NCBI GenBank assembly: GCA_945889645.1 | Contig: CAMDCA010000021.1 | Span: 1-34,382 of the forward strand | DNA length: 34,382 nt | DNA from: Rhizobium sp. Q54 | Lineage (GTDB): Bacteria; Pseudomonadota; Alphaproteobacteria; UBA2966; CAIVPW01 | Direction: 5' to 3' | In this document: piece by piece, positions 29,853 through 34,382 of the stretch | How the letters are laid out: every line of letters begins with the position of its first letter | How positions within the stretch are numbered: position 1 is the first letter of the stretch | Notes under the pieces: generated by a model | The model's input: the letters and a program-made list of their open reading frames with translations, nothing else | Told to the model about the DNA's origin: nothing | Databases searched by the model: none | Translations under genes and position numbers: made by a program

Positions 29853-30500
29853 ATGAATCCAAAGGACTCGCACCGCGACGCCGCTGTCCCCGCCCGAGTC
29901 GCCGAGGACGTCATTGCCGCCGGAATCTATGTCTCGGCCAGGGGCTGGACCCCGGCGACGGCCGGCAACCTGTCGGCTCGCATCGATGCGGGGTCGATGG
30001 CCATCACGGCCTCCGGAGTGGACAAGGGCGCCCTGCTGTCCAGCGACTTGCTGGTCTACGACTTTGCCGGCGGGCGGGCGCTCGGGGGGCGCGCGTCGTC
30101 GGCCGAGACGGCCTTGCACGTCGAGCGCTACACGGCGGACGCGACGGTCGGCGCGGTGGTGCACGTCCACGCCCGCAACGCGACGGTGCTGTCGATGGCG
30201 ACGCGCGGCGACGTCATTCGCTTGGAAGGCTACGAACTCTTGAAGGCGCTCGACGGTGTGCGCACGCACGAGACGCCGGTGGACGTGCCGGTGTTCCCCA
30301 ACACCCAGGACATGGACGCATTGGCGCGCGACGTGCGCAAGCGGCTCGGCGCCGGCGGCGACGGCGCGCACACGTTTGGCTATCTTCTCGCCGGCCACGG
30401 ACTGTATGCGTGGGGACGCACCATGGCCGATGCGCTGCGCCACACCGAGGCGCTGGAATTCCTGTTGGGGTGCGAACTGGAAAGGCGAAGGGTCGCATGA
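29853..30500 (+). CDS. mtnB: methylthioribulose-1-phosphate dehydratase MtnB
   Basis: MtnB removes water from 5-methylthioribulose 1-phosphate to form the diketone of the methionine salvage pathway. The 215-residue class II aldolase-like protein has zinc ligands H104 and H106 in VVHVHARN and H182 in AGHGLYAWG. The N-terminal ATAGNLSARI and ITASGVDKG are typical. ATG 29853 lies 6 bases after a -10 element. The stop overlaps mtnD by 4 bases (ATGA). Confidence 0.93.
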   Translation: MNPKDSHRDAAVPARVAEDVIAAGIYVSARGWTPATAGNLSARIDAGSMAITASGVDKGALLSSDLLVYDFAGGRALGGRASSAETALHVERYTADATVGAVVHVHARNATVLSMATRGDVIRLEGYELLKALDGVRTHETPVDVPVFPNTQDMDALARDVRKRLGAGGDGAHTFGYLLAGHGLYAWGRTMADALRHTEALEFLLGCELERRRVA

Positions 30501-31042
30501 GCGAACTGAGGATTTTTCGCGACGACAAACCCGGCGTGCGCGAACGCACGCTGACCGACGGCAGCAAGATCGCCGACGCGCTGGCAGCCGAAGGCATCCT
30601 GTTCGAGCGCTGGAAGGCGGACGTCGAACTCGCCCCGAGCGACAGCCAGGACAAGGTGCTGGCGGCCTACGCCAAGCCGATCGACAAGCTCAAGCGTGCC
30701 AAGGGCTACGTCACCGCCGACGTCGTGCGCATGGTCCCGGACGCGCCCAACCGTGTCGAGGCGCGCCAAAAATTCCTCAAGGAGCACCAGCATGCTGAAG
30801 ACGAGGTGCGCTTCTTCGTCGAAGGCATCGGCTCGTTCTACCTGCACCTTGGTCCGCGGGTGTACCAGGTGGTCTGCGAGCGCAACGACCTCATCTCGGT
30901 GCCGGACAACACCAAGCATTGGTTCGACATGGGGCCGGCGCCGCGCTTCACTGCCATCCGTCTGTTCTCCAATCCGGACGGCTGGGTCGCCAAGTTCACC
31001 GGCGAGACCATCGCCGAGTCGTTCCCGCCGTTCGGTGAATAA
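30497..31042 (+). CDS. mtnD: acireductone dioxygenase MtnD (ARD)
   Basis: MtnD splits the acireductone with oxygen to formate and the methionine precursor 2-keto-4-methylthiobutyrate (Fe form), or along an off-path route giving CO (Ni form). The 181-residue cupin has H97, H99 and E103 in EHQHAEDEVRFFVEG and the fourth ligand H140 in NTKHWFDMG. It overlaps mtnB by ATGA and leads directly into mtnC. Confidence 0.95.
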   Translation: MSELRIFRDDKPGVRERTLTDGSKIADALAAEGILFERWKADVELAPSDSQDKVLAAYAKPIDKLKRAKGYVTADVVRMVPDAPNRVEARQKFLKEHQHAEDEVRFFVEGIGSFYLHLGPRVYQVVCERNDLISVPDNTKHWFDMGPAPRFTAIRLFSNPDGWVAKFTGETIAESFPPFGE

Positions 31043-31049
31043 GGCGGAC

Positions 31050-31763
31050 ATGAACAAGGCCGGCAATCCCGCTCCGCTGATGCGGGGTGCGGTCGCGCTG
31101 CTCGACGTCGAAGGCACGACGACGCCGATCGCGTTCGTGAAGGAGGTTCTGTTTCCCTTCGCGCGTGCGCGCATGGCGACGTTCGTCACCGAGCGCGCAT
31201 CGGAGCCGGCCGTCGCCGCCGAGATCGCCGCGGTCGCCAAAGAGCTGGGGGCGGCGCGTCCCGATCCTGCTGCGGCGGTGCACGCGCTGCTGGCGTGGTC
31301 CGACGCCGACCGCAAGGTGACGCCGCTCAAGTCGCTGCAGGGCATGATCTGGAAGCAGGGCTACGAGTCCGGCGCGCTGCAAGGTCCGGTGTTCGAGGAC
31401 GCCGTCACGCAGTTGCGGGCGTGGAAGGAGCGGGGCATTCCGGTCTTCATCTATTCGTCGGGATCGGTGACGGCGCAGACGTTGTTGTTCCGTCATTCCG
31501 ACCACGGCGACCTGTTGCCACTGCTCGCGGGGCATTTCGACACCACGGTGGGCGGCAAGCTTGAGGCGGGCTCGTACGCCACGATTGCCGGGCGCATCGG
31601 CTTCCCTGCCGCCAAGGTCACGTTCTTCTCCGACCATGCGGGCGAGGTTCGTGCCGCCGCCGAAAGCGGCATGACGGGAGTGCTACTGCGCCGCCCGGGC
31701 GAGGTTCCGCCGCCGTCCGAGCCGTGGAGCGGCACGACGGTCGTGACGTTGGCCGGGTTCTAG
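31050..31763 (+). CDS. mtnC: enolase-phosphatase MtnC (E1)
   Basis: MtnC is a HAD-family enzyme that enolises and dephosphorylates 2,3-diketo-5-methylthiopentyl-1-phosphate to acireductone. The 237-residue protein has motif I in LLDVEGTTTPIAFV, motif II Ser in YSSGSV, and the C-terminal FFSDHAGEVRAA. ATG 31050 follows AAGGCGG closely; an in-frame GTG 31035 inside mtnD is possible. With mtnB and mtnD it covers the later steps of the pathway; mtnA and the MTA-splitting enzyme are elsewhere. Confidence 0.93.
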   Translation: MNKAGNPAPLMRGAVALLDVEGTTTPIAFVKEVLFPFARARMATFVTERASEPAVAAEIAAVAKELGAARPDPAAAVHALLAWSDADRKVTPLKSLQGMIWKQGYESGALQGPVFEDAVTQLRAWKERGIPVFIYSSGSVTAQTLLFRHSDHGDLLPLLAGHFDTTVGGKLEAGSYATIAGRIGFPAAKVTFFSDHAGEVRAAAESGMTGVLLRRPGEVPPPSEPWSGTTVVTLAGF

Positions 31764-31800: not shown

Positions 31801-32337
31801 ATGTTCAAACTGTCCTTCCGCGCCACCCTCGTCCTTGCAGCGGCTTGCTGTGTTGCCGCCGCCCCCGCGGTAATAGCGCAGGTGCCCACCGTGGCGCCGG
31901 AGGTCGATGAGAAGGAAATGGTCGGCAACGCGCGCATCGTCGACACCGACATCCTCGAGGTGAACGGCCAGCGCTTTCAACTGTTCGGCATCGACGCGAT
32001 GGAGCAGGAGCAAAGCTGCTTCCTCAACGGCAAGCCGTGGTCGTGCGGCGCCGTCGCCTATCGCGAGATGGAAAAAATCCTGTTCGACGAGCGCGGGCCG
32101 GTGACGTGCACGCCGCGGCAGGACCCAAATCCGCAGCGCCGCGGCATGCCGTGGGGCACCTGCGCGATCAACGGCAAGGACATCGCCGAACTGATGGTGC
32201 GGCGCGGCATGGCAATCGCGGTGCGCGATCAAACGATGGACTATGTCGCCGCCGAAAAAGCCGCCGATACCGCCGGTGTGGGCGTGTGGCAAGGGCCGTT
32301 CATTCCACCCTGGGAGTACCGTCAACGTTTGCGTTGA
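31801..32337 (+). CDS. secreted SNase-like (thermonuclease fold) protein, probably altered active site
   Basis: The 178-residue protein has a signal peptide (about 1-26) and the staphylococcal-nuclease-like core: ARIVDTDILEVNGQRFQLFGIDAMEQEQ followed by NGKDIAELMVRRGMAIAV and AADTAGVGVWQGPF. By alignment by eye, the position of nuclease Arg35 is Gln (FQLFGID), and the DTPE box is DAME. The Asp and Glu positions remain. It may be a weak nuclease or a binding protein. Four Cys in the mature part suggest disulfides. No close partner gene. Confidence 0.8.
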   Translation: MFKLSFRATLVLAAACCVAAAPAVIAQVPTVAPEVDEKEMVGNARIVDTDILEVNGQRFQLFGIDAMEQEQSCFLNGKPWSCGAVAYREMEKILFDERGPVTCTPRQDPNPQRRGMPWGTCAINGKDIAELMVRRGMAIAVRDQTMDYVAAEKAADTAGVGVWQGPFIPPWEYRQRLR

Positions 32338-32386: not shown

Positions 32387-32416
32387 TTGATTCACCTCGG
32401 CAATACACACTATGGT
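32387..32416 (+). promoter_or_regulatory. promoter of the TolQ-like operon
   Basis: TTGATT (32387-32392), an 18-base spacer and TATGGT (32411-32416) precede the operon. Transcription would start near 32423, inside the inverted repeat that follows. Confidence 0.6.
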
Positions 32417-32418
32417 GT

Positions 32419-32434
32419 CCGTCAGTTCTGACGG
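32419..32434. promoter_or_regulatory. perfect 16-base palindrome at the start of the TolQ-like operon
   Basis: CCGTCAGTTCTGACGG is a perfect inverted repeat (7-bp arms around TT) directly after the -10 element. It could be the operator of a dimeric repressor, or a 5' hairpin that protects the mRNA. Confidence 0.6.
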
Positions 32435-32485
32435 GGTATGGGCGCGGGCCTGAGATACTGCGTGCACTTGGGTGGGCAATACATC

Positions 32486-33280
32486 ATGAGCTCTTCTGAA
32501 CTTGCTGGCGGCGAGCGTTCTGGGCCGCGCGTGATCGTCACGCCGTTTGAGCTGCGCGACTACATGCTGCTTCTGCGTTGGCTGATCGTCGCATCACTTA
32601 TTGTGGTGGCGCTGTTCGCGGTCTTCCAGCTGGGACTCCTCCGCACGATGATCGCGGTTGACCGAACGTACTTGTCGAGCCTCGTGGTGCTGGTCTTCAT
32701 TGGCGCCACCATCCACTGCGGTTTCGCCACCGTCGCCGCTTCGCGCGAACTCAACACGGCGCGCCGTGTTGCCCGCGCCATCCGCAAGAATCCGGCCAGC
32801 TTTCGCCTTACCGAGAACGGCGAAGTTGCGCTGAACGACGGCTCGACGCTGCTGGCCGGCGTCATCACCGACCACATCCGCAACGTCATCATCAAGGCAC
32901 GCAACCCGAGCGACGAGCCGCTCGACCACACCATGCTGATGCACGCGCTCGCCGACACCTTGCGCAGCCGCCTGCAGGTCGGCGTGTTCATCGTTGATGC
33001 GCTGCCGAAGATCGGCCTCGTCGGCACGGTTATCGGCTTCATCCTCATGCTGGCGCCGATCCGCGGCATCGACAGCTTCGATCCGCTGACCCTGCGCGCG
33101 GCGATGGCCGACATGTCGAGCGGCATGGCGACCGCGTTGTCGGTCACCCTGACGGCTCTGATCGGTTCGATCATTCTGAAGCTGCAGTACTACTTCCTGG
33201 AAATCGGCACCATCGAGCTGCACTCGATCGTCGCCGAGACGACGGACATGTACGTCGTCCCTGCTCTGCAGACCGAGTAG
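32486..33280 (+). CDS. MotA/TolQ/ExbB-family proton channel protein
   Basis: The 264-residue protein has four likely membrane segments (about 33-51, 64-82, 168-190, 212-234). The last two carry the family signature: PKIGLVGTVIGFILML and DMSSGMATALSVTLTALIGSIILKL, as in TolQ/ExbB and MotA. Between the second and third segments lies a cytoplasmic region of about 85 residues. It should form an oligomeric ring that uses proton flow to move a partner. ATG 32486 is preferred (GGTGGG upstream); ATG 32438 would add 16 residues. The next gene encodes a small TolR/ExbD-like protein. Confidence 0.88.
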   Translation: MSSSELAGGERSGPRVIVTPFELRDYMLLLRWLIVASLIVVALFAVFQLGLLRTMIAVDRTYLSSLVVLVFIGATIHCGFATVAASRELNTARRVARAIRKNPASFRLTENGEVALNDGSTLLAGVITDHIRNVIIKARNPSDEPLDHTMLMHALADTLRSRLQVGVFIVDALPKIGLVGTVIGFILMLAPIRGIDSFDPLTLRAAMADMSSGMATALSVTLTALIGSIILKLQYYFLEIGTIELHSIVAETTDMYVVPALQTE

Positions 33281-33295
33281 CCGGGCCCCGTAGGC

Positions 33296-33309
33296 GAGGC
33301 TTCGGCCTC
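33296..33309 (+). promoter_or_regulatory. intercistronic UUCG-loop hairpin
   Basis: GAGGC-TTCG-GCCTC is a stable cUUCGg-type tetraloop hairpin between the channel gene and the next gene. The following AGGA is the ribosome-binding site of the second gene, so the hairpin may tune the ratio of subunits or protect the transcript. Confidence 0.6.
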
Positions 33310-33320
33310 AGGACGCACCC

Positions 33321-33938
33321 ATGAAGTCATCGGACGGCTTCTTCTACGAAGGCGAGGTGTTCTACCCGTTCCAGGACATGCTCTTTAATGCCCTGTTGAG
33401 CTTCACCTTCATGTTCTTGATCGCCTTCATGTTGATCAATCCGACCGCGCAGTCGGGCAAGATCGACCCGAAGGCGGAAGTCCTCATCACCATGAAGTGG
33501 CCGGACAATCATCCCGACGACGTCGATTTGTACGTCGAAGACCCGAACGGCGGTGTCGTGTGGTACCACGTCAAAGAAGCCGGACTGATGCACCTCGACC
33601 GCGACGATCGCGGCAACTATCGCGACACGATCGCGCTCGGCGAAAAGAAGATTCAGAACCCGCTCAACCAGGAAACCGTAACCCTTCGCGGCATCGTTCC
33701 GGGCGAGTACGTGATCAACGTGCACCACTTCCTCGCCAACGGAACCGAAGACGTTCCGGTCGAGGTAAAGGTGGAAAGGCTCAACCCGGACGTGTCTCTG
33801 GTTTTCTATACGACGCTGCATCTTGACCATAAGGGTCAGGAGCTCACCGCCGTCCGCTTCACAATGGACGAAAAGGGCGCGATCACCGACGTCAACCGTC
33901 GGCCCAAGACCCTAGTGCGCTCCAGGAAGGGAGCTTGA
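33321..33938 (+). CDS. TolR/ExbD-like membrane-anchored protein with a beta-sandwich-like domain
   Basis: The 205-residue protein has one N-terminal membrane segment (about 21-39) preceded by PFQDML; D19 stands where ExbD/TolR have their essential Asp in PFIDVML. The outside part is not a TolR domain. It has EVLITMKWPDNHPDDVDLYVEDPNGGVVWY, a DxDLxVxDPxG pattern as in DUF2135/YfaP-like domains, then TVTLRGIVPGEYVINVHHFLANG, which looks like a beta-sandwich with a possible calcium site. It probably couples proton flow through the upstream ring protein to an extracytoplasmic task. The downstream gene starts 8 bases later. Confidence 0.72.
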   Translation: MKSSDGFFYEGEVFYPFQDMLFNALLSFTFMFLIAFMLINPTAQSGKIDPKAEVLITMKWPDNHPDDVDLYVEDPNGGVVWYHVKEAGLMHLDRDDRGNYRDTIALGEKKIQNPLNQETVTLRGIVPGEYVINVHHFLANGTEDVPVEVKVERLNPDVSLVFYTTLHLDHKGQELTAVRFTMDEKGAITDVNRRPKTLVRSRKGA

Positions 33939-33945
33939 GGCGCCC

Positions 33946-34382
33946 ATGACGCTCGGTTACGTCGGAGTTATCGCGGCGTATGTCATCATCGCCGTTCTGT
34001 TGCTGAGCCTGAACATCGCGCCGCGCTGGGCGTGGTGGGTCAAGGCGACGGCGATCATCGTTACGGCGGCGTTCTTCGTCGTCACCTACTACTCGATGAT
34101 CGACCTGATGGGCTGGCCGGTGAAGGAACGCCTGCCGGAGAAGTTCCAGCTGCTGTGGGCCAAGGTCAATGAGCCCGACAAGCTGTTGAACCAGCCGGGC
34201 GCGATCTACATGTGGGTCGAGGCGCTGGACAAGAACAACGTGCCGAACGGCATTCCGCGCGCCTATCGCCTACCGTACACCCAGCCACTGGAGACCGGCA
34301 TCGAGAACGCACTAGACATGATCACCGCCGGCCAGGAAGTCGGCGGCACCGCCGAGATGTACGACCAAGAAGAGCAGGACCG
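33946..34382 (+). CDS. membrane protein of the channel operon, 3' end outside the window (partial)
   Basis: The open frame from ATG 33946 runs to the window end without a stop (145 residues). It begins with two membrane segments (about 5-25 and 31-50: YVGVIAAYVIIAVLLLSL and KATAIIVTAAFFVVTYYS), followed by a soluble region with QLLWAKVNEPDKLLNQPGAIYMWVEAL and RAYRLPYTQPLETGIENAL. I do not recognise the family. Its position 8 bases after the TolR/ExbD-like gene makes it the third member of the same operon. Confidence 0.8.
   Translation, partial: MTLGYVGVIAAYVIIAVLLLSLNIAPRWAWWVKATAIIVTAAFFVVTYYSMIDLMGWPVKERLPEKFQLLWAKVNEPDKLLNQPGAIYMWVEALDKNNVPNGIPRAYRLPYTQPLETGIENALDMITAGQEVGGTAEMYDQEEQD

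Follow-up and report, generated by a model that had tools for sequence, protein, structure and literature searches.

The window analysed here is a whole contig of 34,382 bp from a 2.33-Mb alphaproteobacterial draft genome, and three genes on the same strand lie at its end. Gene 1 (32486–33280, +) encodes a channel subunit of the MotA/TolQ/ExbB family (264 aa, four transmembrane helices), gene 2 (33321–33938, +) a putative axle-type subunit of 205 aa with a predicted helix at residues 16–39 that carries Asp19 and a TerD-like beta-sandwich modelled at residues ~54–192, and gene 3 (33946–34382, +), which is cut by the contig end, a protein with two transmembrane helices and an alpha/beta domain that is probably periplasmic. 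TolQ–TolR–TolA and MotA–MotB are both encoded elsewhere in the same genome, and the operon is a third system in this cell, distinct from TolQRA and MotAB. Because the operon is conserved in relatives, in other bacteria and in viral contigs (see below), it is real and a chance arrangement is excluded. Upstream in the window lie probable methionine-salvage genes (29853–31763; class II aldolase, acireductone dioxygenase and enolase-phosphatase, assigned by inspection) and, 5' of the operon, a gene for a secreted SNase-like protein (31801–32337), members of whose family are also found close to the module or to the PQQ cluster at no fewer than 14 alphaproteobacterial loci.

The first-pass annotation had credited the operon with dedicated control by a promoter, a palindrome and a tetraloop hairpin; the promoter stood up to comparison and the other two elements did not. 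Gene 1 is preceded by a promoter-like pair (32387–32416, +) of TTGATT (32387–32392), an 18-nt spacer and TATGGT (32411–32416), which fell below the threshold of a generic promoter scan and went unreported there; comparison by eye shows it in every one of seven relatives, where TTGATT is paired with TATGGT or TATCGT. The palindrome (32419–32434, unstranded; CCGTCAGttCTGACGG, read as CCGTCAG-TT-CTGACGG) is present in the window and absent as such from the sister genomes compared upstream of gene 1, and the UUCG-type hairpin GAGGC-TTCG-GCCTC, read from the sequence between genes 1 and 2 (33296–33309, +), was not found in the intergenic regions of the sister genomes. Both elements are probably incidental, and since neither is conserved, the data support an ordinary promoter and no further dedicated control.

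Gene 1 belongs to the MotA/TolQ/ExbB family (PF01618). Read from the ATG at 32486, it gives 264 aa (or 280 aa from another in-frame ATG, at 32438), and the protein matches the Pfam profile MotA_ExbB with 30.4 bits (E = 3.7e-7; curated cut-off 22.9). Hydropathy indicates four hydrophobic helices and the GLVGTVIGF box is present, in agreement with the earlier description of a four-helix protein of MotA/TolQ/ExbB type. The family profile of gene 1 matches solved MotA, TolQ, PomA and ExbB chains, with the top score for MotA, and in the comparison of profile with structures the threonines of helices 3 and 4 align with GLFGTV and ATAIGL of TolQ. Residues T181 (in GTVIGF), T221, G180, G184 and D59 are invariant in 60 of 60 sequences, and T181 and T221 presumably correspond to the pore threonines of the family.

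Gene 2 encodes one membrane helix that contains PFQDML with Asp19 (DVDLYVEDPNGG), a residue that the AlphaFold2 model and the alignments place at the cytoplasmic end of helix 16–39. ExbD/TolR profiles from Pfam or NCBIfam gave no match to gene 2 up to E = 10, these families were missing among those listed for 70 gene 2 homologues, and no OmpA-like or peptidoglycan-binding domain was matched in Pfam. On the lack of a profile match, and with TolQRA encoded separately in this genome, we rejected an ordinary TolR or ExbD, an outcome that would have refuted the first reading. The initial picture of a single-helix protein with an Asp19-bearing PFQDML and a domain of neither TolR nor OmpA type was upheld at the level of profiles, the domain being modelled as a beta-sandwich.

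The AlphaFold2 model of gene 2 (pLDDT 88) predicts an all-beta domain at residues 54–192, joined to the helix by a short linker. Foldseek alone gave no significant match to this model. When its top 1000 entries were taken into a structural re-alignment, TerD-family entries led the list (Z = 11.8, 9.8, 9.6 and 9.0 over 124–143 residues); all four ranked within the top six, and later rows had Z < 7. TolR, ExbD and MotB were not among the matches listed in this alignment, a list that does not exclude a TolR fold. On the sequence side, profile–profile comparison with TerD (hhalign) returned a probability below 1%, PF02342 was not matched, and the TerD-like motifs seen by eye in the head (DxD; an H..DD/DN-type motif; TETAxxF against QELTAVRF) stayed below significance. 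TerD was therefore rejected as a sequence homologue: the gene 2 head, as modelled, and TerD share the fold only. The best fold match is TerD and no adhesin, and the calcium-dependent adhesin-like domain suggested in the first-pass annotation is not supported. Proteins of the TerD family are known from tellurite resistance and stress, and bind calcium. Those aligned here differ from gene 2 in having no Asp-bearing membrane helix. Pfam hints of PPC, DUF2135 and Caleosin for the head were sub-threshold and scattered, and were discarded. Among the residues invariant in the gene 2 alignment are W60, D67, D69, D95, E118, R123 and F180, of which the acidic D67, D69 and D95 would be candidates for calcium binding.

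Gene 3 is represented in the window by 145 of ~199 residues, ~54 short of its end, as judged from a full-length orthologue of 199 aa (L028/L128). Its AlphaFold2 model (pLDDT 85) predicts two helices and an alpha/beta domain, in line with the two-helix third protein with a soluble part that had been described at first. A structure search gave no clear PDB fold match for the domain; the best viral structure match was a transmembrane protein of Rhizobium phage RHph_Y68. Hints of TrAA12 and DUF4131 were not reproduced in ten diverse members. A lipoprotein-like fourth gene, conserved in one bacterial group, lies 3' of gene 3 (L034, L218, L226, L244, L251). For the topology of the complex, we rely on the basic loop of gene 3 and on a soluble paralog of the gene 2 head (L033, 9718–10254, +, on G001:C7), which starts with a signal-peptide-like segment and is located directly after a solo gene 2 paralog; on these grounds, the heads would lie in the periplasm.

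We found gene 2 in 13 of 41 relatives, in 64 of 385 alphaproteobacterial genomes at class level and at 416 or more loci in named bacterial genomes. The 80 loci listed are mostly from marine and freshwater Alpha- and Gammaproteobacteria, a few odd taxon labels among them (Spirochaeta or Sphaerisporangium, for example) being those of MAGs that may be misassigned. Among phage records, gene 2 occurs in 27, every one from a phage of Rhizobium or Sinorhizobium, and with its family profile we found no fewer than 211 IMG/VR contigs; the window's gene 2 protein alone, used as query, retrieved nothing among viral contigs. In the viral contigs, the operon has phage genes in its vicinity, among them those for terminase large subunit, sigma factor, primase and a ClpS-like protein. 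The order 1-2-3 was found in 78 of 78 viral contigs with enough flanking sequence (three-protein profiles), in 7 of 7 named rhizobial phage loci examined and in all bacterial triplets but one (1-3-2), counts that refer to loci and not to independent events, as the set contains some duplicates and many relatives. The three genes are conserved together, and the first reading of the operon withstood this check too.

In smaller rhizobial phages (16-3 p038/p040/p042, X2_25, TM3_3_14B and NV1.1.1), small genes are interspersed in the module. A gene for a trypsin-like protease lies just 5' of gene 1 in 16-3, X2_25 and TM3_3_14B (L208 4184–5083, L027 5577–6224 and L210 3033–3743). Four further loci (L245, L246, L247 and L249) are remote two-gene relatives with a MotA-like protein and a highly divergent gene-2-like protein, and no recognisable gene 3. 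A concatenated tree of 110 loci, built with a quick method and showing long branches that make deep placements uncertain, contains three groups: (i) viral contigs and the larger rhizobial phages with one cellular row, (ii) LLRDD bacteria, to which the smaller rhizobial phages are sisters, and (iii) HLDRDD bacteria, including the window.

Every one of the 72 distinct gene 2 sequences from viruses and phages has Asp19, and so do 97 of the 118 cellular copies that could be read; the remaining 21 have A, V or S at this position (L146, L150, L154, L156, L164, L167, L169–L171, L173, L174, L179, L180, L186, L188, L194, L201, L231, L234, L238 and L241). These copies have a Lys nearby in the helix, retain the operon and still have the gene 1 threonines. 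They fall into Rhodobacterales-like and Beijerinckiaceae-like groups and one further lineage, that is, two or three alphaproteobacterial lineages have lost Asp19 (three changes on the tree). Because of this loss, proton coupling via Asp19 cannot be universal; in the lineages concerned, the work would fall to another residue, or else protons no longer pass the complex at this point. Lineages that keep the operon and lack Asp19 are a natural experiment on the need for proton flow. Their existence, the short linker between helix and head and the lack of a peptidoglycan-binding domain by Pfam would suit a gated conductance or sensor and not a motor, with the TerD-like head sensing a periplasmic ligand (a metal, or alcohol or aldehyde stress) and gating a proton leak through the ring. 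However, Asp19 is strictly retained (in every viral copy and in most cellular ones), as are the two gene 1 threonines, and this fits torque-type members equally well; we rate this reading lowest of the alternatives, as quite unlikely.

Solo copies of gene 2, with neither gene 1 nor gene 3 beside them, were found only as extra paralogs in the window's genus and family (L029–L033, L042 and L043), two of which lie in the window's own genome (G000:C15:19087–19689 and G000:C65:7078–7683; L031 and L032). One type of solo paralog is located in a PQQ-ABC region and another near guaB/guaA-like genes. When four solo paralogs were compared with the gene 2 of the window, residues 1–43 were 91–95% identical and the head only 59–62%. 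In the shared part, codon third positions are approximately as diverged as in an orthologue from another genus, which argues that the identity of residues 1–43 results from selection and not from fresh gene conversion. Such a pattern is as expected if several gene 2 heads share one ring protein, as we read these sequences.

Most of the bacterial copies closest to that of the window lie next to a PQQ alcohol dehydrogenase system on the chromosome (TIGR03075, TIGR03863/64/66; ped-type clusters). A PQQ-dependent dehydrogenase of the methanol/ethanol family (TIGR03075) lies within ~5.5 kb of 48 of 73 bacterial triplets, and a strict PQQ-system marker (TIGR03075, TIGR03863 or TIGR03866) near 56 of them, the 73 being the matches closest to the window's gene 2, relatives included, and neither random nor independent. 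Across 385 alphaproteobacterial genomes, with TIGR03075 matches counted at E < 1e-100, we found a strong match in 27 of 31 genomes with the HLDRDD module, compared to 63 of 330 module-free genomes (Fisher p ~ 3e-14, kinship ignored). Co-occurrence is weak for the LLRDD subfamily (10 of 24 genomes; p = 0.013, kinship likewise ignored), which has no constant PQQ neighbour. Near the operon itself, no PQQ-system genes were found in the window or the sister genomes; in the window's genome, the gene 2 paralog on C15 is located ~3.4 kb from a TIGR03866 gene of the PQQ system. A 2026 review of the Pseudomonas ped cluster (PMC12997753) does not name the module and contains no ExbB, TolQ or TerD. Based on the neighbourhood, we favour PQQ-dependent alcohol oxidation as the task of the main bacterial subfamily.

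The same linkage, taken with the membership of gene 1 in the ExbB/TolQ family, could also point to a TonB/Tol-like energiser that imports PQQ, lanthanide or calcium for periplasmic PQQ dehydrogenases, the gene 2/3 head replacing TonB. TonB-dependent uptake of lanthanides and PQQ is established, and the acidic TerD-like head, if modelled correctly, might bind Ca or Ln ions. Against such an import role, the module contains no TonB-like protein, no recurrent neighbour was recognised by eye as a TonB-dependent receptor, the heads are compact and have no long periplasm-spanning linker, and it is hard to see how phages would benefit from it. We judge it improbable.

The phage copies, near which no PQQ genes were found among the neighbours examined, bear on a further reading. 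Rhizobial phages of several unrelated groups carry the module, as do many environmental phages, which might be expected of a conflict system that, in the course of an infection, guards or alters the envelope (for defence or superinfection exclusion), like Zorya or Ter, its PQQ neighbourhood then being secondary. ZorAB is a defence member of the MotA/ExbB superfamily. TerD-type genes in jumbo phages have, moreover, been proposed to counter superinfecting phages, in a paper whose passages on them do not describe the module (PMC7824862). Yet no PADLOC system was found, most of the closest bacterial loci adjoin a metabolic system, and the module is single-copy in most genomes searched, small marine ones included; a conflict system is unlikely, although it leads the alternatives weighed here. 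For Zorya and other catalogued defence systems, the search returned a partial, weak match of gene 1 to ZorA (E = 3.6e-4, confined to the pore helices), and they were rejected. Gene 1 is much shorter than ZorA, gene 2 has no ZorB match, and no ZorC, ZorD or ZorE was recognised among the recurrent neighbours of the module.

Members of the superfamily are known to power flagella, gliding, outer-membrane import, Tol-Pal and one phage-defence system. The operon resembles TolQR and ExbBD in having a ring-type channel protein that falls in their Pfam family, in the adjacency of its genes and in a single-helix partner with an Asp near the cytoplasmic end; it differs from them in that gene 2 lacks an ExbD/TolR match and carries a predicted beta-sandwich of ~140 residues, and in that a conserved two-helix gene 3 stands in place of TonB or TolA. 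With MotAB and PomAB it shares the best profile score of gene 1 (against MotA) and the Asp-bearing helix, whereas the module has no OmpA-like peptidoglycan-binding domain and no flagellar neighbours were noticed. As gene 1 passes PF01618, gene 2 fails the ExbD/TolR and MotB profiles and the system is not Zorya, we count the operon as a novel member of a superfamily already known. Searches of the open-access literature turned up no account of the module; a 2025 survey of MotAB-type proteins reports generic transporters to which domains of unknown function are attached and, in its passages on them, does not describe it (PMC12505986). The early suspicion of an undescribed proton-channel-type system with a different effector, separate from TolQR, ExbBD, MotAB and ZorAB, is thus supported, with a different head and genes that are kept together almost everywhere.

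Our preferred reading, to which we give about an even chance, is a third kind of MotA/ExbB-superfamily complex, a ring with a TerD-like axle, that serves PQQ alcohol oxidation in bacteria and acts at the host envelope in phages. Gene 1 would form a ring in the inner membrane, and gene 2 would be its axle, with Asp19 inside the ring beside the conserved gene 1 threonines and the acidic TerD-like head in the periplasm. To these, gene 3 would add a further conserved subunit, with its two helices in the membrane and its domain in the periplasm. Protons passing Asp19 would set the two heads in motion or switch their state, and the heads may in turn act on a partner in the periplasm. In bacteria, such a system would most likely serve periplasmic PQQ-dependent alcohol oxidation, through handling of metal or PQQ cofactors or through gating of the pathway. 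Phages would probably use their own copies on the host envelope, which suggests an activity that is useful there more generally. Against this reading stand the lineages that lack Asp19, the LLRDD subfamily with its weak PQQ link, and the finding of no PQQ genes either near the phage copies, among the neighbours examined, or near the operon in the window and its sister genomes.

Beyond the earlier sequence-only reading, this analysis adds the phage copies, the link to PQQ alcohol oxidation, the solo gene 2 paralogs and the Asp19-less lineages. Neighbourhood connects the module with alcohol oxidation in the periplasm of abundant marine bacteria (SAR86, PS1 and Rhodobiaceae MAGs), and many phages carry it. 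More tentatively, at rather less than an even chance, an ion-driven machine of the envelope that has so far gone undescribed may be common to tailed phages and bacteria: a MotA/ExbB-superfamily complex whose axle head has the TerD fold and whose third subunit is dedicated to it. In bacteria it would be a working part of periplasmic alcohol oxidation that depends on PQQ (and metal), and in phages a host-takeover device. A superfamily member of this kind, whose head and third subunit are new, would bring proton-driven membrane machines a new job and phages such a machine of their own.
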